A stretch of 64,000 bases of DNA, taken from contig NZ_KB233222.1 in the NCBI RefSeq assembly GCF_000314855.2, positions 1,870,774-1,934,773 on the forward strand, given 5' to 3'. Made by a program: the position numbers and the translations under genes. Position 1 is the stretch's first letter. Each line of letters begins with the position of its first letter. Positions 4,767-59,649 of this stretch are shown here, in pieces. Source of the stretch: Providencia burhodogranariea DSM 19968. GTDB lineage: Bacteria; Pseudomonadota; Gammaproteobacteria; Enterobacterales; Enterobacteriaceae. The notes under the pieces are model-generated. The model searched no databases and had not been told where the DNA came from. It worked only from the letters and a program-made list of their open reading frames with translations.

Positions 4767-5552
4767 TTATTGAGGATAATGATGATATCCCATTTTTTCA
4801 GAAATATTGCGAGCAGCCACTTTTAATAAGGTGACATAAGTACCGAGTTGCTGCTCATCAAAGCGAATTGTTGGAAACGAAATAGATAATCCGGCAATCA
4901 CATGCCCTAAACGGTCATATACAGGCACCGCAATACAACGTAAACCCAGTTCTTGTTCTTCCCTATCTTGCGCAAAATGTTGCTCACGTACTGTGGTTAA
5001 TTCCGCCATCAATTGTTCAATACTCAATAAGGTTGTTTCGGTTTTTTTAATAAACTCAATCTGGCTTAACGTTTCCTTGATAGCCGTTTCATCTTGCCAA
5101 GCTAATAAAATTTTACCAATTGCAGTGCAATACAGCGGGTTACGTCGACCCACTCGTGAATACATCCGTAAGTTATAACTGGAATCAATTTTATGGATAT
5201 AAATGATCGCGTTTTCATCAAGTGCACCAAGGTGCAAAGCTTCATGGGTTAACTGCCCCACACGACGCATTTCTTTGTCTGCTATTTCTATCAAATCAAC
5301 GTATTCAAGGGATTTGGCGCCTAGCTCAAAGAGTTTAAGTGTCAGGGCGTATTTATCTGCTTCCCCTTCTTGCTCGACATAACCAAGCTGTTTCATTGTC
5401 TGCAAAAAACGGTAGGCTGTCGCTTTCGACATTAATAAGCGCTGCGATAATTCAGAAACGCCTATTTCTTTTTGCTCACCTAGCGCATTTAAAATACTAA
5501 ATACTTTCACGACAGAAGATACTGCATCCGCTTGCGTTATTTTATCCATCAT
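4767..5552 (-). CDS. kdgR: IclR-family repressor KdgR
   Basis: Represses sugar-acid and pectin catabolism genes and is released by 2-keto-3-deoxygluconate. The 261 residues have an N-terminal winged helix (GVSELSQRLLMSKATAYRFL, residues about 31-50) and an IclR effector domain (LHLGALDENAIIYIHKIDS; EEQELGLRCIAVPVYDR), colinear with E. coli KdgR and sharing its GYHHYP-type C-terminus. AGGA lies 6 nt before the chosen ATG; a second ATG follows immediately. It is divergent from kdgK, the expected target, with a KdgR box between them. Confidence 0.93.
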   Translation of the reverse strand: MMDKITQADAVSSVVKVFSILNALGEQKEIGVSELSQRLLMSKATAYRFLQTMKQLGYVEQEGEADKYALTLKLFELGAKSLEYVDLIEIADKEMRRVGQLTHEALHLGALDENAIIYIHKIDSSYNLRMYSRVGRRNPLYCTAIGKILLAWQDETAIKETLSQIEFIKKTETTLLSIEQLMAELTTVREQHFAQDREEQELGLRCIAVPVYDRLGHVIAGLSISFPTIRFDEQQLGTYVTLLKVAARNISEKMGYHHYPQ

Positions 5553-31519: not shown

Positions 31520-31944
31520 AATTATTTAATTCCTTGTATCCGCAGTTATTTTGCCAATACAATAATCTATTGTTTTATATGTTAAAATTTGTTTTTTTAA
31601 TAGCATTTCAGGATTTTTGGAAATTACATATGATGTGTTTTTATCACCATCTTAAATCGTGAAAATATCCCAATACCCCAGAATTCATTATATGAATTAA
31701 ATTACTTGCATGATTATCTACCTAGCCCTTTCAAGGATTAGAAACGTAAGTTCATCAATTCAATAAAAATAACCAAAATTATAATCGCTATAGTTATAAT
31801 TTGAATTTAAGCGTTATTATAATAATTTATCTGTTGAATGATCCAGATAAATCACCTTCATATAATGATGAAAACGTTTTTGTTTTTGAAGCGGCGGGTA
31901 TAGCTGTGAATGGATGATGAGCGAATAAACAGAACGGTACAGCT
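31520..31944. other. Intergenic region upstream of the FAD dehydrogenase
   Basis: No gene recognised. AT-rich; it must contain the minus-strand promoter for the dehydrogenase operon. Nothing else stands out before the decayed CRISPR repeat at 31945. Confidence 0.5.
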
Positions 31945-32019
31945 TTTCTAAGCTACCTATATGACAGTGAACCTCATATCACTCAGCTTTATGTTATCCG
32001 GGATTTTTAAGCAGCCTAT
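31945..32019 (-). repeat. Isolated decayed type I-F repeats
   Basis: A 28-mer at 31945-31972 matches the array 1/2 consensus at 24 of 28 positions, and 59 nt further (32004-32019) the first half of another repeat matches at 14 of 16. The spacing equals a repeat-spacer unit, so this is a CRISPR fossil, 1.3 kb from array 2 across the papain-like gene. Confidence 0.7.
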
Positions 32020-32159
32020 AACCAAAAAATTACAACCTTTATTTACCGAAGCCACCTTGTGAGCCAAGGTTCTGAGTGACGCAGCATTTTTGACCAACAC
32101 CGTCATTCCACACTTATAGTACGTTTTCGCTCAGCCTAGCGTTAAATTTCATCAAGCAG

Positions 32160-33008
32160 CTATTGTTTATTTTCATAATAAGCTCTGATAAAAAAAAGCG
32201 TTGATGGAGGGAAGTAAGATTTTAATTCTCCAAACGTAGGCAATTTATTGAATGTTTTCCATGCATCGATAAACTGTACGCATGGCTCTTTATTTTTCTC
32301 CTGTATAATTACCGCATTAAAATCATGTGCACACTCACCAATTACTGGGAGGATATAATTTTCTGCGCTAATGATAAAAGAGAAGTCTTCCTTATTAAGG
32401 TTATAACGTCTTAAAACTTCATTTTTTACATCATCAATAGAATAAAAATAACTTAATTTAAGTTTTTGACCAAAAATGACTCGATCAACAAGGGTACTTT
32501 CTAATCCAACTGTCGGTGATTTTGTGTTTTTTACACTGTATATATCTTGCCGGTAATGGATGTTGTAATGTAAACACGCTGATAATATGGCACAATTTCC
32601 AGAATAATGAATGAATGGCTTATTGACATATTTTGCCATTTTTTCTAAATCATTTTTTCTCAAAGTTTGTGGATATAATTTTTTTTCTTTCCGTTTAACA
32701 CAGAGCGCATCTTTAATTCTTATCACATCTTTAAAATCACTATCGGTCATTTCATTATTGGATATTTTTGTATTACCTAGCCAAACTGTATGTATTTCTT
32801 TTTGAATATTTATTGCATTAGTATTTAAATTATTAAAAATTCTTTCCAAAAAATTATTTGAAACTTTTCTCAATTTAGTAGCTTTGTTAACTGGCTTAAT
32901 AGCGACAATATTTGATGAGAATTCCAGCTTTATGTTGTCGCTAATACCTGTATTATTTTCTCGAGTATTTTGACGTGGAGAATTTATATTTATAGTACTT
33001 ATTGGCAT
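32160..33008 (-). CDS. Papain-like (Cys-His-Asp) protein, possible secreted effector
   Basis: 282 residues, AT-rich, no signal peptide. A putative catalytic triad is visible in the order typical of papain-like toxins and glutamine deamidases: Cys139 in YSGNCAILSA, His228 in GECAHDFNAVI, and Asp248 in VQFIDAWKTF. The N-terminus (MPISTININS) is Ser/Asn/Thr-rich and disordered, as in many type III effectors, but no secretion genes are nearby, so delivery is speculation. GGA lies 8 nt before the ATG. No partner gene. It is flanked by decayed CRISPR repeats on both sides. I do not recognise a precise family; the fold assignment is inference from the three motifs. Confidence 0.65.
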   Translation of the reverse strand: MPISTININSPRQNTRENNTGISDNIKLEFSSNIVAIKPVNKATKLRKVSNNFLERIFNNLNTNAINIQKEIHTVWLGNTKISNNEMTDSDFKDVIRIKDALCVKRKEKKLYPQTLRKNDLEKMAKYVNKPFIHYSGNCAILSACLHYNIHYRQDIYSVKNTKSPTVGLESTLVDRVIFGQKLKLSYFYSIDDVKNEVLRRYNLNKEDFSFIISAENYILPVIGECAHDFNAVIIQEKNKEPCVQFIDAWKTFNKLPTFGELKSYFPPSTLFFIRAYYENKQ

Positions 33009-33134
33009 GCTTGTTATCCATATTCAATTAAACCTAAGAGTGTATCCGAAATATAATTTAGTGTTTTAGGTTATCATACCAATATTTGTTTTATTTCAAC
33101 TAATTAAGGTAAATACTAACACGATATTACTGAA

Positions 33135-33225
33135 AATAGCACCTGCCTGTGGGGCTGTAGACGGTCAAAATAATGATCAAAATCATCAAATGTTGATTAC
33201 CAGTAAGGCCTGTGAGCCAGTGTAC
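33135..33225 (-). repeat. Decayed repeats extending the trailer end of array 2
   Basis: At 33135-33162 and 33198-33225 the 3' 18 nt match the I-F repeat of array 3 type (GCCTGTG core) at 14/18 and 15/18. The second lies exactly 60 nt from the first array 2 repeat and the first another 63 nt away, which keeps the array phase. Confidence 0.55.
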
Positions 33226-33257
33226 TCTTGGCGTCCCCTGCAAACATCGAATGTAGC

Positions 33258-34005
33258 TTTGTAAACTGCCTATGCAGCAGTGAACAGGAAAAACTTAATA
33301 TTCAGAAAATCTGGAGGTTTCTAAGCTGCCTATGCGGCAGTGAACACTTTGGTCACGCAGGTTTTCAATAAACTGTTTTTCTAAGCTGCCTATACGGCAG
33401 TGAACGACATGTTATAGCAAATTAGCAATACTTATCATTTCTAAGCTGCCTATACGGCAGTGAACTATTTGTCTCGATCATCTGCATAACGCTGACCTTT
33501 CTAAGCTACCTATACGGCAGTGAACCTCAAAATACTTGCGTTTGTACTCGGCATCACTTTCTAAGCTGCCTATGCGGCAGTGAACCTCTAATGTTCATTT
33601 ACCCACCTTTGCAATTTTTTCTAAGCTGCCTATGCGGCAGTGAACTTTTGTTGTTTTGAGTTTGGTACACTGCATGATTTCTAAGCTGCCTATGCGGCAG
33701 TGAACACAGTGAGTGATAACAATTTAGACGGCGGCACTTTCTAAGCTGCCTATGCGGCAGTGAACATATAACGCAGTCCACGGGCTCGTCTTTAAATTTT
33801 CTAAGCTGCCTATGCGGCAGTGAACATCGCTATTAATAGTGAGGAATACGCACATAATTTCTAAGCTGCCTATGCGGCAGTGAACCCACAAACGGCTCTA
33901 TCAGTCGATCACCCTGCTTTCTAAGCTGCCTATGCGGCAGTGAACGTATCAGGGATGAAGCAAAAGCAATGTTGCTGTTTCTAAGCTGCCTATGCGGCAG
34001 TGAAC
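33258..34005 (-). CRISPR. Type I-F CRISPR array 2: 13 repeats, 12 spacers
   Basis: 28-nt repeats every 60 nt from 33258 to 33978, all spacers 32 nt. Most repeats have loop GCATA; those at 33378, 33438 and 33498 have GTATA (the canonical I-F loop), and 33498 carries a G-U in the stem. The trailer-end repeat (33258) is 25/28 to consensus. The array lies directly downstream of cas6f with its leader between, and is read on the same (minus) strand as the cas operon. Confidence 0.97.
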
Positions 34006-41300: not shown

Positions 41301-41813
41301 ACTGTCAGCCGCGGATTGGCTTTTAACCAGTGAACTAAATAGTAGTGCGGAGATCCACTCATGCCGTAATGGGTCGCCTTTAAAGGGAGATTTGATTGCT
41401 GGATTAAGTTTATCTTGGAATAATCGTGATGCTTTGCCCCAATCATGCAATAACGCCGCAAGTCGAGCAAAGGCTCCAATTAGGGAAAGGTATTTCCAAT
41501 CATTTTCATGCTCACTGCCCAGAAATGATTTTTCAGTTCGGTTCACGGGGACATACCCTTCTGCGTTAAATTTCTTTTTATTACCGACAACCCATAATAA
41601 TTGAGTTCGTGAACGAGAGCGTATCCAATGGCAACTCACTGCGGTGCTTCGGCTTGCACTTTGACGCAACATTTTTTTTACTGTCTGCAAACCTTCAGCA
41701 GTGATCAATGTTTGCCATGTGTTATCACCAATTCGATTCGCAAAAGCATCTAACACGCGCCGAGTCCTTTTCAATGCATGTTTTTCACATTGTGAGACGA
41801 AGGTAACGATCAT
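38328..41813 (-). CDS. cas3f: Cas2-Cas3 fusion nuclease/helicase
   Basis: Does two jobs in type I-F: the N-terminal Cas2 part (about residues 1-95) works with Cas1 in spacer integration, and the Cas3 part degrades targeted DNA. 1161 residues. HD nuclease motif LLHDWGKASRLF with His123-Asp124; helicase Walker A STGCGKT (438-444); DEVD box in LVIDEVDDF (605-608); motif VI-like QMAGRVRRHREG. It overlaps cas1 by 4 nt. All motifs are intact, so interference is expected to work. Confidence 0.95.
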   Translation of the reverse strand: MIVTFVSQCEKHALKRTRRVLDAFANRIGDNTWQTLITAEGLQTVKKMLRQSASRSTAVSCHWIRSRSRTQLLWVVGNKKKFNAEGYVPVNRTEKSFLGSEHENDWKYLSLIGAFARLAALLHDWGKASRLFQDKLNPAIKSPFKGDPLRHEWISALLFSSLVKSQSAADSDEKWLEIIANQQWNEPQLQQWTKENGLLSAPLSGLPDAASLLIWLIVSHHRLPFLNKKENRDNYCDQARNSLANLLKTIEQKWGYENRQDEDEFKKRLGMCFEFPNGLLSESMTWSHAVQQAAIDLKHQLPLFQEAMNEGSWRIIAHYARLCLMLGDHNYSSKDNDPQWKSDIPLYANTKRYFGLMQFKQKLDEHLVNVAEIARNVAETLPFFESEPPTASDIPDLTHDKNSQGKFSWQEDAVNTLYKYREEHEDGVKGYFIVNMASTGCGKTLANAKIMQALSEDKQSLRYILALGLRTLTLQTGDEYRDRIGLDDSQLAVLVGSKAVTQLHLDSKQKQEDISAESTPEASGSASQESLFDDDELHWPEDKWQGILPEESLSTVLTRAKDRALLYAPVLACTIDHMMGATETIRGGRYILPCLRLMSSDLVIDEVDDFTDHDSIAIGRLVHMAGLLGRKVMISSATIPPDLALAYFHAYQAGWHVHAKSRQQSAQIGCIWVDEGKYDAVKDKCKSTTHTATIIANEANAPSLYQQYHDAFIDKRAKILQAQPARRKACIVPMSLDKGQNSQPHFFEHIQQAILAQHSAHSFIDSQTGIHISFGVVRMANIRPCVELTHFLLACEWPENVEIRTMAYHSQQVLLLRHEQEKHLDSVLKRKEKNGELPVALENSIIRGHLEQVKNEGKANNLIFILVATPVEEVGRDHDFDWAVVEPSSYRSIIQMAGRVRRHREGAVEHPNMALLQYNWKGFQEGGKEVTKDVFRWPGYENENLSLRLVTHNLSALVDEQQLLQSVDSIPRITKQLDYESRKHRDLACLEHAAIKKTLATGAVFAAKTEVKQNNSSRRSNQPKPPLPTNTAFHLWGYTHGCWWMTGLPQQLTPFRHSTPSIRLSLVINNNGKLEFSQYQQDQWIFIESKYGIKHQPFEPVLTKRLWLFRDYEQSINSFEQADLQVISLSRLYGEISLQLRDKQDVEYHYNDQMGIYVVKR

Positions 41814-42787
41814 GATTTCGGCTCCTGATTCTGCTGCTCAGAGCCAGTTTTCAATGCAATCTGCTTAACGGTATCGAACAGAAAATCCAGCGCATGATTA
41901 TCAACAAAAGATTGTAAAACTTGTTGGCGAAACTCTTGTTCCGTCGCATCTTCCTTACTACAAATAAAGGCCCATGGCAGCACAATGGCATCTTTGATTA
42001 AATCCGCCACATCAAAGACCAAAGCACCACGCCGCGTTTTTCCATGCATCACTGCAAAACCATGCGGAATGCCGAGTACCCACAAACAACTCGCCGCTAA
42101 ACCATAAGCCAGATAATTGCCATGGTTCAAAAATGCATTTGCTTTATCGATAGCTTGATGCTGCCGAGTGAAGTTCTTTTTGTCGGTATTATTTGCAGCA
42201 TACTTATAAAGGACTTTGGTTAGTTGTGCCTCTGTAAGTAGTAATTCTTGTGAGTTATCCGCAGCGTCTGTACGTTTATGAAAGGTTTTCAATGCCCCTT
42301 GGACAGTATTGTCATCATAAATAAACCCTTCATTTTGTAATTCTCGCGAGCCTTGCCACACTTTTTGCAAATAACTTATGCGGGCTTGCTGCAATGTTTT
42401 TGCGGCTGCTAAGCGCTTTTCATCATCAAACCAAAATCCCATCCAACCTTGTAAATACTCGGTAGGACGATACTCACTCTGCGGTGTAAACCACTCTACT
42501 TCGGTTGCCATATAGAGTGGGGTTCCCCCTCCACCACAAAAACCAACCAGTACCCCAGCTTGTGAAAGCATGCGCATGGCAGCTTGGGTAATGGATGTGC
42601 CATTCCCGAGCAATAAAACGGTTGTATTGGCAATTGGAATATTAAAGTAGAGGTTTTCGTTTTTAGCTTCAGTAAAATAGAGTACGCGACCGTCTTTTTG
42701 CATAACACGGCAGTGTTCGAGGTAATACATATTGGCGCGTTTGGAATGAAGAATTGTTTTTAGATCTGAAGGTGAAAAGTCATCCAT
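41810..42787 (-). CDS. cas1: CRISPR integrase Cas1 (type I-F)
   Basis: Integrates new spacers at the leader-repeat junction. 325 residues with the metal ligands intact: Glu186 (LLLTEAQ), His248 (VMHGKTRR), Asp259 and Asp262 (VFDVADL), spaced as in P. aeruginosa Cas1. First gene of cas1, cas2-3, cas8f, cas5f, cas7f, cas6f, the canonical I-F1 order. No transposon (tns or tniQ) genes are near, so this is a standard defence system. Confidence 0.96.
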   Translation of the reverse strand: MDDFSPSDLKTILHSKRANMYYLEHCRVMQKDGRVLYFTEAKNENLYFNIPIANTTVLLLGNGTSITQAAMRMLSQAGVLVGFCGGGGTPLYMATEVEWFTPQSEYRPTEYLQGWMGFWFDDEKRLAAAKTLQQARISYLQKVWQGSRELQNEGFIYDDNTVQGALKTFHKRTDAADNSQELLLTEAQLTKVLYKYAANNTDKKNFTRQHQAIDKANAFLNHGNYLAYGLAASCLWVLGIPHGFAVMHGKTRRGALVFDVADLIKDAIVLPWAFICSKEDATEQEFRQQVLQSFVDNHALDFLFDTVKQIALKTGSEQQNQEPKS

Positions 42788-43145
42788 ATCAAGTATTCCA
42801 TCTCATTAATCAAGCTAAATCTGTGTGCAACTTATTGGCGTTATATTTCAGCGAAAATTGAGGCTATTTTGATGAAGAATCTTGATACTCGTAAATATTT
42901 ATGTGATTAGATTTATTTAGCTTAAGCAATCAACCATAACCCCAAGCAAACTGATAGTTAATTTAAATTAATACAATTTAACTTATAGAATGTCTATCTG
43001 TATCGATAAAATATCAGTATTACAATGCTATTTTGGGAGTGCCTTCGCAGATTTTATTACCAAGAGCAACTTATTGATTACATTTTAATTATCGAATTAA
43101 GTCTTAGATTCATTTATTAATGATTTAGTTAGCACAATCCGATTA
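42788..43145. other. AT-rich region upstream of cas1
   Basis: No gene seen. It must contain the cas operon promoter, reading on the minus strand. No clear hairpin or repeat until the orphan repeat at 43146. Confidence 0.5.
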
Positions 43146-43173
43146 TTTCTAAGCTGCCTGTGTGGCAGTGAAC
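43146..43173 (-). repeat. Orphan type I-F repeat, identical to array 3 consensus
   Basis: 28 of 28 positions match the array 3 repeat, including its distinctive ACACA loop, but no second intact repeat lies one unit away. It is 2.4 kb from array 3, with the RHH and AbiE genes between. Confidence 0.9.
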
Positions 43174-43265
43174 ATGCCTGTCTAATGAATCTTTCGACAA
43201 TATTGTCAATGTCGTACTGTATGTCATCAGAAAACGAATTTCTAAAATTATTAAATTAGTTCATA

Positions 43266-43460
43266 TCATTTCCTTAATTCTTTTTTTAAAACTTCTATTA
43301 TCCAATCAGATAGTTTCATCTCTTTTGATTGAGCTTTTTTTACGAGTGCATTTTTAAATTCAGACTGACATCTAATGTATAGTTGTGCGTCATTAGTTAC
43401 CTCTTTTTTTGCGTTACCATTACCGACGTTGCCATGATTCTTGTGTAATGTATGTTCCAT
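43266..43460 (-). CDS. Small ribbon-helix-helix DNA-binding protein
   Basis: 64 residues. After a basic, disordered N-terminus comes a strand (LYIRCQSEF, about residues 27-35) and two helices (KNALVKKAQSKEMKLSDWII and EVLKKELRK), the pattern of Arc/MetJ/CopG-type RHH regulators and of many antitoxins. AGAGAG lies just before the ATG. No toxin partner is adjacent, so it may be a solitary regulator or an orphan antitoxin. Same strand as AbiE, 470 bp downstream of it. Confidence 0.68.
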   Translation of the reverse strand: MEHTLHKNHGNVGNGNAKKEVTNDAQLYIRCQSEFKNALVKKAQSKEMKLSDWIIEVLKKELRK

Positions 43461-43639
43461 TTTATCTCTCTATTAATAGTAGTAGCGCTGCACATTTCTT
43501 CCTTCAACTTCATATTTAGTACCAACGTCAATTATTATGTATTTAAATGTTCTATATCCCATATGAACACTGATAACGTTTAATCTTCGGATTGATTTGT
43601 TAAGCTTTCTTTTTCAAAGAATGATTATACCTTTTTGTT

Positions 43640-43750
43640 TTATTGTTTAAATATTGGTGCATCAGCAACAATATTATCGCCTTCTTTTGCTATACCCGCT
43701 TTCAATTCTGCGTACAGCTTGCCGTTTTTCGCCGTCTCAGTTGTTTCTAA
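43640..43750 (-). pseudogene. Possible 3' gene remnant
   Basis: The minus strand ends a protein-like stretch (AKNGKLYAELKAGIAKEGDN then IVADAPIFKQ and a stop) of about 37 codons without a start codon; an in-frame TGA lies inside the neighbouring decayed repeat. It reads like the tail of a truncated gene. Family not recognised. Confidence 0.3.
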
Positions 43751-43771
43751 GCAGACTGTTCAGCAGTGAAT
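43744..43771 (-). repeat. Decayed type I-F repeat
   Basis: 22 of 28 positions match the array 3 consensus; the ends (TTTCTAAGC and GCAGTGAA) are best kept. It is 598 nt from the orphan repeat, close to ten repeat-spacer units. Confidence 0.55.
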
Positions 43772-43932
43772 TCGAGTCAATATCTATTCCTATCTACTTC
43801 TCAGAGCTTCGTACTAATATTGGCTGTTAGTGACATTAACTCTTTCTCCCAATAAGCCGTTAAACCACTTCCTGTTTGTCAGACCTATATTGTGCTATTG
43901 ATTGGGGAGGCTGAACAATTTACCTTAGCGTA

Positions 43933-44856
43933 TTACATCTTGAATAGTAATTTATCTGCATGTTTACCATATAAACTCAGCTGAAGCGCTAACAGTAATT
44001 CTCTTAAGGTAACCTCAAGATATTTAAGAAAATCCGGCTGACTGATAGTTCGTTCCGTGACAGTTACTGGCAAGAATCTTTTCATTTCATTTTTGAATTT
44101 TTCACTTGTCACAATCTCATTGAGAGAGTGAATTCTTTTAATTAGTAAGTCTCTGAACTCAAGGCCATAACCATAGTCTGTTAGCTTTTTTCTGACTAAT
44201 TTCGCATCAAATTCAGCGCCTTGCTGTTTCAGCCAGACCAGGTCCCATATATCTCTGTAACGGATGTATTTCTTTGTCCCAGGAAAAGATACCAATTTGT
44301 CAGCCATAATTTCATTCAACTCCTCAACCCGTACTATTAGATCAGAATATCCATCGGGTAGTTGGGGATAATTTTTGCTGAGCATTCTAGGTACACTGGT
44401 ATACGCAGGAATGTTTGCTATTTCGATCTTGATGCGTTGCTTAGGCAAGTCTTTGCGTTCGGGGAAAGTTGTAACAGATATTTGCCATTTATCTACCGTA
44501 ACATCAGCATAGTCTGGCTCCAATCGCAGTTCCGCAGGCTCCTTAACAATAACCTCCAGACCGTATCGCCCCCCGACATAGTCTTGAATGCAGTCTTTAA
44601 TTTTTTTTATATTTGCGGAGCAGAATTCATGGCCGCCAGCAAAATCCAGATCTTCACTGAATCTGTTAGAACCATAACATAGGCGTAAGGAGGTTCCCCC
44701 CTGAAATGTAATTGTCTTCAGAATCCCTGCAATAGATAAACAGTACAAAATGTCATAGTGCAGTAATTCTTTCTCAACGACTGGGCGGTTTAAAGTAAGG
44801 TTATTCGCTGTAACGATGTCATCGACCAGTACATTGAAATCGACTAAATCACTCAT
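43933..44856 (-). CDS. abiEii: Type IV toxin AbiEii, nucleotidyltransferase
   Basis: Bacteriostatic nucleotidyltransferase toxin of the AbiE abortive-infection/toxin-antitoxin family. 307 residues with the family motif FQGGTSL (Gly54-Ser57, numbered one higher if the TTG start is used) and RFSEDLDF carrying the catalytic Asp pair near 70 and 72, then VEELNEIMADKLVSF and RYRDIWDLVWL. The ATG at 44856 overlaps the AbiEi stop by 8 nt. It follows its antitoxin and lies between CRISPR array 3 and an orphan repeat. Confidence 0.9.
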   Translation of the reverse strand: MSDLVDFNVLVDDIVTANNLTLNRPVVEKELLHYDILYCLSIAGILKTITFQGGTSLRLCYGSNRFSEDLDFAGGHEFCSANIKKIKDCIQDYVGGRYGLEVIVKEPAELRLEPDYADVTVDKWQISVTTFPERKDLPKQRIKIEIANIPAYTSVPRMLSKNYPQLPDGYSDLIVRVEELNEIMADKLVSFPGTKKYIRYRDIWDLVWLKQQGAEFDAKLVRKKLTDYGYGLEFRDLLIKRIHSLNEIVTSEKFKNEMKRFLPVTVTERTISQPDFLKYLEVTLRELLLALQLSLYGKHADKLLFKM

Positions 44857-45382
44857 CAATAAGCTCCTCCTTTTGAATTAGGTGTGTATTCCTGCCAACT
44901 CGAAGAAGATCTTTGATTGCTGTTTCTTTTGTTGCAATACGCAATGGACCCCTGCCTTCTATCGTGTTTCGAATAATTTCTGACGGTTTTTTATTTGTAT
45001 GCGTGATTTCAATGACCCCCCATGGCGTCACGAACTCTCCAGATCGTCCCGTAGACATGATGGTTAGCCTATCGATGAGTATCTGTGAAATCACTCCATA
45101 CTGAGATAAAGCTGATTCTAAGCTGATGTAGTTGTATTCACCCCGTCGAATATTAACCGCAAGGCTATCCAATGGATATACACCTAACGAAGCTCTGGCA
45201 TTGACATAAACTCCTTTCGCTGCTCGCTTCAAAATACCCGCAGCAACTAAGCGATCAACTGATTTTTGTAATGTTTTCGGAGATTCATTAGGGAAAATGG
45301 TCGCCAAATCTTGGGTCAAGAAAATATTTTTTCCCTTTTTACTAAAGTCATCCAGTGTGTGAATAGCTGTAATTTGATCCAT
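44849..45382 (-). CDS. abiEi: AbiEi-family antitoxin and autorepressor
   Basis: 177 residues with an N-terminal winged helix (about residues 14-60: FLTQDLATIFPNESPKTLQK; AAGILKRAAKGVYVN) and the C-terminal antitoxin domain. In characterised systems AbiEi neutralises AbiEii without complex formation and represses its own operon through inverted repeats; matching repeats lie just upstream here. GGAG is 8 nt before the ATG. First gene of the pair. Confidence 0.88.
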   Translation of the reverse strand: MDQITAIHTLDDFSKKGKNIFLTQDLATIFPNESPKTLQKSVDRLVAAGILKRAAKGVYVNARASLGVYPLDSLAVNIRRGEYNYISLESALSQYGVISQILIDRLTIMSTGRSGEFVTPWGVIEITHTNKKPSEIIRNTIEGRGPLRIATKETAIKDLLRVGRNTHLIQKEELIDE

Positions 45383-45413
45383 TATATTATCTCCACTAAA
45401 TCACCCTTTCTGT

Positions 45414-45494
45414 GGGGTGGTTTTGTACAGATATATAATAGACTTAATATCTATACAAATAAACCCCAAATAAGGGGTTATTTTGTATAGATAA
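45414..45494. promoter_or_regulatory. AbiE operator: three 21-bp iterons
   Basis: GGGGTNNTTTTGTAYAGATAW-like elements (TTTGTA then AGATA is the core) lie at 45414-45434 (plus), 45447-45467 (minus) and 45474-45494 (plus), the second with one T to A and C/T variation. They start 32 bp upstream of the AbiEi start. Alternating orientation gives two inverted-repeat pairs, as expected for cooperative AbiEi binding. Confidence 0.78.
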
Positions 45495-45567
45495 TGGGAG
45501 TGAGACGAATTATTATTGCTGATGGAAACTAGTTATTGTTCGCTCGTAAGCTAAATAACTCTTCATT

Positions 45568-46557
45568 TTTCTAAGCTGCCTGTGTGGCAGTGAACCCGCG
45601 CATGATAGAACTTGCCCCGTTTATTTTTTTCTAAGCTGCCTGTGTGGCAGTGAACTTTGTATAGACAGTTCGAGTAATTTCATTTCGTTTCTAAGCTGCC
45701 TGTGTGGCAGTGAACTCTACCCCTCCGACGGCATTATTGATGTTCGATTTCTAAGCTGCCTGTGTGGCAGTGAACGTCACGCGCTCATATTGGGGGCTAC
45801 TGGTGCATTTCTAAGCTGCCTGTGTGGCAGTGAACATTATGTTGGTTACGTGAAAGGCGATTGGGATTTTCTAAGCTGCCTGTGTGGCAGTGAACATGAT
45901 TTTTTACAGGGGGCGTCTTTTGCTGATTTTCTAAGCTGCCTGTGTGGCAGTGAACTATTTTTTTCAACTAAAGAAATGATTGAGCTTTTTCTAAGCTGCC
46001 TGTGTGGCAGTGAACCGGAAATTGAAATAATCACGCCAGAACTGGCGATTTCTAAGCTGCCTGTGTGGCAGTGAACAAATGGGACCCGAAGGACTCAGGT
46101 TTTAAAGTTTTCTAAGCTGCCTGTGTGGCAGTGAACATTCTTGCTGTGTGTATATTTGCTCAGATACATTTCTAAGCTGCCTGTGTGGCAGTGAACCGTC
46201 CGCCGCTCGTCCTGCCAATGAGTTATCCTTTCTAAGCTGCCTGTGTGGCAGTGAACTACTGCTTTTTGAATAATGGTGAGCGTAATGCTTTCTAAGCTGC
46301 CTGTGTGGCAGTGAACCGATGTAAGCGCAAGTGCATCGATGTGCACACATTTCTAAGCTGCCTGTGTGGCAGTGAACGACTCTGTCTGCTGCGCACCAGT
46401 GGCGTTAGCTTTCTAAGCTGCCTGTGTGGCAGTGAACATAACCTTGACTGTGAGCGTCAACTAATAAGATTTCTAAGCTGCCTGTGTGGCAGTGAACCAA
46501 TCGATAAGTGAGGGTTTCGCACATCCAGATTTCTAAGCTGCCTGTGTGGCAGTGAAC
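45568..46557 (-). CRISPR. Type I-F CRISPR array 3: 17 repeats, 16 spacers
   Basis: 28-nt repeats at 45568, 45628, 45688, 45748, 45808, 45868, 45928, 45988, 46049, 46109, 46169, 46229, 46289, 46350, 46410, 46470 and 46530; spacers 32 nt with two of 33 nt. All repeats are identical, with stem CTGCC/GGCAG kept and loop ACACA rather than GCATA. Leader at the high-coordinate end. Uniform repeats suggest a young or actively growing array. Confidence 0.97.
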
Positions 46558-46710
46558 TATAAATTATCAAATAAAACGCTTAACACAACAATAAATTACG
46601 ATGATTTTTATAAAAATACCTTGTTTTTTCGCGGCATCTCTAATCTATTGTTTTTATGGTAAATTTTTAAAGAGCAAAAATAGAAGGGTAAAATAAGGTT
46701 AAAACACCGG
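46558..46710 (-). promoter_or_regulatory. Leader of CRISPR array 3
   Basis: AAAATACCTT starts 56 nt and TATTGTTTT 89 nt beyond the last repeat, and TATAAATTATCA abuts the repeat as in array 1. Same architecture as the other leaders. Confidence 0.85.
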
Positions 46711-46946: not shown

Positions 46947-47882
46947 TTACCGTCCACCAAATAGCGACATACTATTGAGATCTTTGAAAATATCTTGCGA
47001 TGCTTGGAACATCGCCTTCTCTTTATAATAATCCGTTGTCGCGCCAATCCAGTTTGTATCAAGTAACTCACTGGCTCTCTGCGCATTTTGAATACTGCGA
47101 GTATCAGCTAGGAAATTTAACTTATCAATTTCCTGTAATTGTAACCCTTGTTTCGCTTCAATATTTGAGACCTGATCTAATGCAGATTTAATCGCGCTAT
47201 TGGCTATTCCAAGGTCTTTGTTAGCGGCTTCTAGCACATCTGGATCGGCGTTATCTTGCGGAACTCTCAATGTAGCAATTCCCACATTAAGCGCTTTAAA
47301 TACTTCAACCACATTATTCCTATCAGTCGGGAAAACCTGTGCCCCCGTAAAATAGGTGGTCATTTCACGGTCGTTAGACACATTTTGCGTAATCGCTTTA
47401 TTCCCACCGTTATATAGCACTTCGCCTTCTGCATTGATTTCAAAAGGGGGGTTATCCGATTGAAAACCGGCAAAGATATATCGTCCATTGCCATCGGTGG
47501 TGTTTCCCAACGCAACTAACTGATCTTTTAAACCCGTTAATTGATTAGCCAGCGAATTTCTATCTTTGTCACTCAAACCAGCTTGATTCGATGCTTGAAT
47601 AATCGTTGTATCAATTTGTGTTGTCACATCCGTCATTTGGGTCAGAATGCTCATTTGTAACGTCATTCCTGTCTTAGCAAAACCACGGCTAGCAACATAT
47701 TGCTGATTCCGATTTTCTGACTGATTAATGCGTACTGCTTGGGATGAGGCTTGTGGGTCATCAGAAGGTTTACTGACTCGTTTACCGGATGCTAATTGGC
47801 TGCCCACATCCATAAGCCGTGATTGTGCATTATTCATATCTTGTAATCGCTGGTGGTAAATCATATTGGTACTTAAACGCAT
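46947..47882 (-). CDS. flgL: Hook-filament junction protein FlgL (HAP3)
   Basis: Second junction protein, between FlgK and flagellin. 311 residues with a flagellin-like N-terminus (MRLSTNMIYHQRLQDMNNAQ; LASGKRVSKPSDDPQASSQA) and C-terminal helix (DIFKDLNSMSLFG). AGGA lies 7 nt before the ATG. Follows flgK by 28 bp. Its 3' side faces the CRISPR island. Confidence 0.94.
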   Translation of the reverse strand: MRLSTNMIYHQRLQDMNNAQSRLMDVGSQLASGKRVSKPSDDPQASSQAVRINQSENRNQQYVASRGFAKTGMTLQMSILTQMTDVTTQIDTTIIQASNQAGLSDKDRNSLANQLTGLKDQLVALGNTTDGNGRYIFAGFQSDNPPFEINAEGEVLYNGGNKAITQNVSNDREMTTYFTGAQVFPTDRNNVVEVFKALNVGIATLRVPQDNADPDVLEAANKDLGIANSAIKSALDQVSNIEAKQGLQLQEIDKLNFLADTRSIQNAQRASELLDTNWIGATTDYYKEKAMFQASQDIFKDLNSMSLFGGR

Positions 47883-59125: not shown

Positions 59126-59382
59126 ATTTATATATCTTATTGAATACCTCATTAACAATTAATAAATTTATTATCACCAAACTTATCCAACTATAATTAT
59201 TGGCCATTTCGCACTAGGCTTTAATAAAATGGCTTGTAAGTGCCGAGTAAAACTATCTTTTTAGCCACAACAATTACTGCAATTTTAGTCGCTAATTACC
59301 TAATGGTATCGACAAATTCCCCCTAGCAATTAAACTATTATATGAGTAAATAATATGAGAATACATTCATGTCATTCCCTTA

Positions 59383-59450
59383 TATTCCACTATTCCACTA
59401 TTCCACTATTCCACTATTCCACTATTCCACTATTCCACTATTCCACTATT
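59383..59450. repeat. Octanucleotide tandem repeat, 8 copies
   Basis: TATTCCAC is repeated eight times without change, followed by a partial TATT. Perfect copies suggest slippage-prone DNA; it is intergenic between flgN and the flhA 3' end. Confidence 0.95.
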
Positions 59451-59649
59451 AAAATACTTTACCTATTGACTATTGACCTTTGCTACTTAGTTTTACTGCA
59501 ATATTGATTAGAGTAGTATTAATTTCATCATGTCACGTCTTGAAGTAATTTAAAAATCTCATCACAATTCAACTCATAAATGAAAAGCCTCTTTCAATCT
59601 CGATTAAAAGCGATTTTTTGCTGTATTGAGCAATGCAGCCTAGTTCACT

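Follow-up and report, generated by a model that had tools for sequence, protein, structure and literature searches.

Because clustered regularly interspaced short palindromic repeats (CRISPR) arrays are made of repeats, they should lose segments by recombination, and what keeps them is little known. A locus of Providencia burhodogranariea DSM 19968 raises this question in a concrete form: a toxin-antitoxin (TA) pair of the AbiE type and a small ribbon-helix-helix (RHH)-like gene stand between a type I-F array and an isolated copy of its repeat. Does this cargo lie inside one array, and if so, why is it still there? We analysed a stretch of 64,000 nucleotides (the window; NZ_KB233222.1, positions 1,870,774 to 1,934,773), which contains one type I-F cas operon and three CRISPR arrays; all positions below are positions within the window. 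As judged by synteny, the cargo is located within a single array, array 3, near its trailer end. TA genes recur inside and between I-F arrays of other genomes, and we give even weight to the explanation that they persist there because their loss is punished.

Array 3 (45568..46557, minus strand) consists of 17 identical repeats and 16 spacers and is read leftwards from a leader at 46558..46707 (minus strand), which resembles the stretches beside arrays 1 and 2 (z scores of 11-15). The isolated repeat (43146..43173, minus strand; the orphan) is identical at all 28 positions to each of the 17 array 3 repeats. The most frequent repeat in arrays 1 and 2 has a GCATA loop where the orphan has ACACA, a difference of 2 positions in 28. 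The first-pass annotation had proposed both the full match and the loop absent from arrays 1 and 2, and both are confirmed. With a pattern admitting both loops and up to three mismatches, a genome-wide search returned 41 repeats, all in the window and in a single orientation, and the ACACA form occurred only in array 3 and the orphan. A weaker repeat (43744..43771, minus strand), which matches at 22 of 28 positions, also held up. When 300 shuffled repeats were compared with both strands of the whole window, the best match was 17-20 positions in 299 cases and 21 in one; since the shuffled maximum is 21, both the orphan (28) and the 43744 repeat (22) are beyond chance. The 43744 repeat has lost its hairpin (predicted fold of -2.3 kcal/mol, as against -7.8 for the array 3 repeat), and the orphan still folds.

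The orphan lies 358 bp from cas1 (41810..42787, minus strand; Pfam Cas_Cas1, and TIGR03637 with 485.5 bits in G000), the first gene of the leftward cas operon. The closest named relatives of this Cas1 are from Providencia stuartii, P. vermicola and P. rettgeri (86-90% identity). For comparison we used ten other Providencia loci, all without abiE, which represent species rather than strains. An array is found upstream of cas1 in all ten. The repeat nearest cas1 is 149-391 bp away in the relatives and 714 bp away in G002, where a helix-turn-helix (HTH) gene intervenes, and in nine of the ten the next repeat follows at the 58-61 bp spacing of an unbroken array. Thus, at the level of species, the array is continuous in nine of ten abiE-free loci, as the first-pass annotation had expected, and the lone stranded terminal repeat among them, in G008 (L120), has other cargo: this repeat is degenerate, the next lies 2,951 bp off, and two glycosyltransferase genes (GT25 and GT9) stand between. 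Synteny extends to both sides. The trailer DNA between cas1 and the array (42968..43098) is conserved, with 69% identity to G010 at the same place and alignments by eye to L001, L002 and L115, and beyond the array eight of the ten relatives have an open reading frame (ORF) of 311 amino acids, equated by length only with the flagellin-like gene of the window (46947..47882, minus strand; 311 amino acids; Pfam Flagellin_N).

No leader was found upstream of either the orphan or the 43744 repeat (z scores of -0.2 to 0.7, versus 11-15 for the three leaders among themselves), and these values rule out a second leader at the orphan. Because the orphan occupies the terminal-repeat position of the relatives and has no leader, the cargo is, on this comparison, inside array 3, and the orphan is by its position the terminal, trailer-end repeat of that array, its oldest repeat severed by the cargo. 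The terminal repeat is degenerate (at least three changes) in eight of the ten relatives and perfect, with the array 3 loop, in the window, which suggests a limited age for the insertion or for a later homogenisation. Entry near the trailer end, as the first-pass annotation had it, therefore agrees with both the synteny and the missing leader. Its single 2.4-kb insertion is not established: the RHH gene and the abiE pair do lie in the interval between the orphan and array 3, but the degenerate repeat at 43744 separates them, so that there are two cargo blocks. As for the spacers of array 3 itself, several other Providencia genomes have 100% matches to that at 46136-46168 elsewhere in their sequence, which presumably reflect a shared phage or plasmid target.

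The larger block is the abiE pair. abiEii (43933..44859, minus strand) encodes a protein of the nucleotidyltransferase toxin family (Pfam PF08843, 115.5 bits against a cut-off of 22.5; PADLOC AbiEii, 383 bits), without a relevant match among NCBIfam families. Motif I/II (GG...DLD) and the RDxxD motif IV (RDIWD) were found by pattern, and motif III as a loose pattern only. The overlapping abiEi (44849..45382, minus strand) belongs to the antitoxin/repressor family: NCBIfam TAA_AbiEi matches residues 1-170, nearly the full length, with 220 bits (cut-off 150), and Pfam AbiEi_4 gives 23.9 bits, slightly under its cut-off of 25. Both proteins match their families over almost the whole length, and the pair is apparently intact. 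Upstream of abiEi, inverted repeats (45386..45495; arms 45386-45434/45447-45495 and 45448-45467/45474-45493) look operator-like, resembling those of the abiE promoter in passages of PMC3985639, which also describe the nucleotidyltransferase motifs of AbiEii. A terminator-like stem with a T-rich tail was scored on both strands at 45462-45479. The smaller block contains the RHH-like ORF (43266..43460, minus strand; 64 amino acids), with sub-threshold NikA/MobA matches. All three genes share their orientation with array 3 and the cas operon. Abutting the 43744 repeat, a minus-strand open stretch of 36 amino acids (43648-43755) has a coding look, with no known family and no plasmid match.

Where this cargo came from was addressed by searches at several levels. 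Among 24 Providencia genomes, abiEii is present in the window genome and, as a distant copy with 37% identity, in G014, whose whole genome has no match to the array region; the RHH gene is present in none of the 23 others, and it has remote relatives only. A search for a donor among plasmids returned 11 matching records, none covering over 80% of the cargo and all restricted to the abiE part at 63-72% DNA identity. At the family level, 15 of 198 genomes match some of the cargo, the window's own included, and the best of the others reaches 72% over abiE; two Proteus mirabilis records contain an AbiEi with 75% identity. In the 117 bases to the right of the orphan there was no convincing phage match (best E 0.3), and no homologues of AbiE, RHH or SpvD were found in 80 Cas1 loci. 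Since abiE is nearly absent from other Providencia, is only distantly matched on plasmids and has a promoter region of its own, the module is an import with its own regulation.

Why, then, is it retained? The reading that we favour, and hold at even confidence, is that TA genes landing in old array tails persist because repeat-repeat loss is punished. A self-contained type IV TA operon, abiEi-abiEii, would have been inserted into trailer-end spacers of array 3, with the small RHH gene inserted separately or together with it, and the insertion would have stranded the oldest repeat next to cas1. The cargo, with its own promoter-operator region, would need nothing from the array. Identical 28-bp repeats flank it (43146 and any array 3 repeat), so that clean excision by recombination should be possible, and excisants would probably be counter-selected: after loss of abiE, AbiEii activity would remain with no fresh AbiEi. 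As AbiEi and AbiEii would be deleted together, any penalty would have to be post-segregational. Such counter-selection would account for the large share of TA modules among cargoes still present within or between I-F arrays. As a by-product, the array tail would be locked against deletions that reach the terminal repeat, and deletions among the 17 inner repeats would be unaffected; in this narrower form, confined to the tail, the protection of the CRISPR locus by the TA pair that the first-pass annotation had suggested is plausible.

To see how often TA genes occupy such places, we scanned 252 loci and the window for I-F arrays. The main scan covered 227 loci and the window, 128 of which have an array of at least three repeats (167 arrays), after an earlier, looser pass on 147; further scans covered 20 loci (19 with arrays, 22 arrays) and five Providencia loci on the csy4 side. 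Some of these loci are the same genome in two collections, and the counts are not of independent arrays. An interval was counted when it was longer than 600 bp, contained genes, was unmasked and was bounded by I-F repeats in the same orientation. Gaps of about 200-730 bp in which no gene was clear, including that of L229 with three short ORFs, were not counted. By hand count there are 15 coding intervals, and six of them contain TA genes. The uniform filters alone give 11 of the 15, three with TA; the other four, again three with TA, emerged on closer inspection of Providencia and Salinivibrio (window array 3, G008, the ParDE interval of L026, and G012).

The TA pairs belong to several families. 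Besides AbiE in array 3 of the window, Pfam identified ParDE and HTH-HipA in Salinivibrio siamensis (L026), a RelE/Gp49-HTH pair in Providencia G002 (L121) and a VapBC-like pair, with a PIN toxin and a MazE/AbrB-type antitoxin, in G173 (L206); the RelE/Gp49-HTH pair of Providencia G012 (L306) was identified by alignment to that of G002. The ParDE genes lie between a repeat broken by a non-coding element and the terminal repeat, which has the same sequence as in the relative L027, and there is no leader before this terminal repeat (z 0.0). The HTH-HipA and VapBC-like pairs are placed between paired arrays because each is followed by a second leader (z 44 and 14); a near-mode search for the VapBC-like genes in Escherichia coli genomes and plasmids gave no match. 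The G002 cassette splits a repeat with a 15-bp duplication. The cassettes of G002 and G012 have the same trailer position within the csy4-side array; the trailer DNA beyond them can be aligned, and neither has a second leader (z 0.8 and 1.2), although on the leader side the arrays of the two genomes differ in repeat sequence and in length (64 versus 5 repeats). A third copy of the RelE/Gp49-HTH family (75%) is on another contig of G017, next to a gene that reads as UmuC-like. The non-coding element of S. siamensis (L026:7796-8236) has one end within a CRISPR repeat, where 11-12 bp (GCACAGGCAGC) are duplicated, and its start occurs a second time at 5521.

The remaining nine intervals are the glycosyltransferase interval of G008; a gene of 167 amino acids in L076 and one of 392 in L241, neither with a Pfam family; an IS21-like element in L287 and solitary repeats with ordinary genes in L146, L293 and L303, all four labelled by reading; and two in the window, namely an SpvD-family gene bounded by degenerate repeats at array 2 and the interval from array 1 to a repeat at 31945. 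The layout of array 2 (31884-33285) is like that of array 3, with trailer decay (25/28 at 33258, 18/28 at 33135), then the SpvD-family gene (32160-33008), then stranded repeats at 31945 (24/28) and 31884 (19/28), 61 bp apart. In Pseudoalteromonas aurantia, six single I-F-like repeats spaced by about 190-224 bp, an unusually long period, were seen beyond an array (L031:6076-7127).

For a background rate we used the 32 TA systems that passages of PMC7725324 give as predicted in one Serratia genome; with an assumed gene number of about 4,500, this corresponds to 2.8% per two-gene insert (range 1.4-4.2%). At 2.8%, the binomial probability is 1.9e-6 for 6 of 15, 2.8e-5 for 5 of 14 (G002 and G012 taken once) and 3.1e-3 for the filter-only 3 of 11. 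At a deliberately high background of 15%, the corresponding values are 0.017, 0.047 and 0.22. The TA excess in array gaps is a good lead, not proof.

Several points weigh against the favoured reading. Nine of the 15 coding intervals are without TA genes, including that of G008 at the identical place and the IS21-like element. Four further intervals (L017, L034, L067 and L283) are masked and unread. With the filters alone, 3 of 11 has a probability of 0.22 under the high background, and this count led us to lower the weight of the reading from slightly better than even to even. The background itself is one Serratia count rather than a matched flank control, and the count was made after the pattern had been noticed. 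Two of the TA pairs stand between arrays with leaders of their own, and G002 and G012 represent one family at one site. For the window, the degenerate repeat at 43744 is compatible with more than one course of insertion, and the empty-site comparison is between species and made from sequence alone.

The alternatives differ in which of these observations they can accommodate. Neutral hitch-hiking, in which array trailer ends are non-essential DNA that collects any mobile cargo, and TA genes are common travellers of no benefit to the array, is a serious possibility, though we would not call it probable. It explains readily why non-TA cargo is found in like places (GT25 and GT9 in G008, the SpvD-family gene beside array 2, the element read as IS21-like), and the filter-only count of 3 in 11 would be unsurprising if the background were 15%; it fits less well with the hand count, which is far over the background of 1.4-4.2%, and with the G002/G012 cassette, which stayed in place through changes of the leader-side array and of the repeat sequence. 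Alternatively, a repeat-flanked abiE segment could have reached array 3 without an insertion, through recombination between repeats that belong to different arrays or strains. Two blocks split by a degenerate repeat would suit such stepwise or repeat-mediated assembly, but the 24 Providencia genomes hold no other copy of the RHH gene and no close copy of abiEii, and we consider this course improbable. It is very unlikely that the orphan stands on its own next to cas1, as a solitary repeat or a mini-array, and is not the tail of array 3: solitary repeats with ordinary genes do exist (L146, L293, L303), but here the syntenic terminal-repeat position with partly homologous trailer DNA, the loop shared with array 3 only and the missing leader all speak for the tail.

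A similarly slight chance is left to control of the CreTA/CrePA kind, in which the orphan or the degenerate repeat would yield a guide resembling CRISPR RNA, Cascade would repress abiE, and abiE would sense the loss of CRISPR. I-F CreTA is recognised by ectopic repeats next to a toxin gene (PMC10097628), and the 43744 repeat is degenerate, as passages of PMC9458426 describe for CreA repeats. Against this, AbiEi is already a protein antitoxin and the 43744 repeat has no hairpin. We compared the 44 stretches of 32 nt that follow repeats in the window, without gaps, with the whole window and the abiE promoter region. The guides after the orphan and the 43744 repeat match the promoter at 16/32 and 15/32, within the range of 14-20 for all 44 stretches; in the whole window, their best matches are 21/32 (inside abiEii, without CC) and 20/32, as against 19-23 for the other stretches (best three per stretch). 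The array 3 spacer at the 45688 repeat matches the promoter at 20/32, but at 2 of 7 seed positions and without CC. No guide-like spacer with a partial match and a CC protospacer-adjacent motif in the abiE promoter was found in this ungapped search, which a weak CreA-type match could escape.

Superintegron cassette arrays are stabilised by TA cassettes, and scattered TA modules in a repeat array could likewise punish large deletions. The difference is that integron cassettes move by an integrase; no integrase gene was named among the interval ORFs, to which the search was confined. Among systems nearer to the window, the closest precedent is Pectobacterium atrosepticum, in which passages of PMC3513311 and PMC3630108 place a putative TA pair, eca3686-7, between I-F CRISPR2 and CRISPR3, likewise beside the cas operon. 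There, however, the TA pair separates two arrays with distinct leaders, according to the relevant part of PMC4117759, whereas in the window one array is split and the trailer-side repeat is leaderless. I-F CreTA works with repeat-like elements and a guide that has a partial match to a CC-flanked target next to the toxin (PMC10097628). It shares with the window a toxin, ectopic repeats and, in passages of PMC12737573 and PMC10097628, the idea of CRISPR addiction; in CreTA/CrePA the guide RNA with Cascade is the antitoxin, whereas the window encodes a protein antitoxin and no guide match was found in the ungapped search. The type IV AbiE systems of plasmids and integrative and conjugative elements have the same protein families and promoter inverted repeats, and differ from the window copy in that the latter sits in a CRISPR array; abiE with its own promoter abolished the loss of an unstable plasmid, according to passages of PMC3985639. 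A survey of Providencia defence systems (PMC12935923) mentions AbiE and I-F arrays separately, unlinked in the matching passages. TA genes between arrays are thus already in print, and none of the literature matches listed reported, in its title or the beginning of its abstract, TA genes lying within CRISPR arrays or a recurring pattern of this kind.

The locus also carries a warning for annotators: where a single repeat stands alone next to cas1, it may be an array's cut-off end, separated from the rest by cargo. If unrelated TA families do keep landing in arrays and staying there as the surrounding array changes, they would be a natural brake on array loss, and TA genes would be a class of selfish genes housed in immune memory. 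More tentatively, and in our estimate rather improbably, protein TA modules could be recurrent, convergent residents of I-F arrays that act as retention locks: deletions spanning them would kill or stall the cell, and the array tails and neighbouring cas genes would be held while leader-side spacers and repeats turn over.

Elsewhere in the window, a tandem 8-bp repeat, TATTCCAC, runs for about eight units at 59367-59478.

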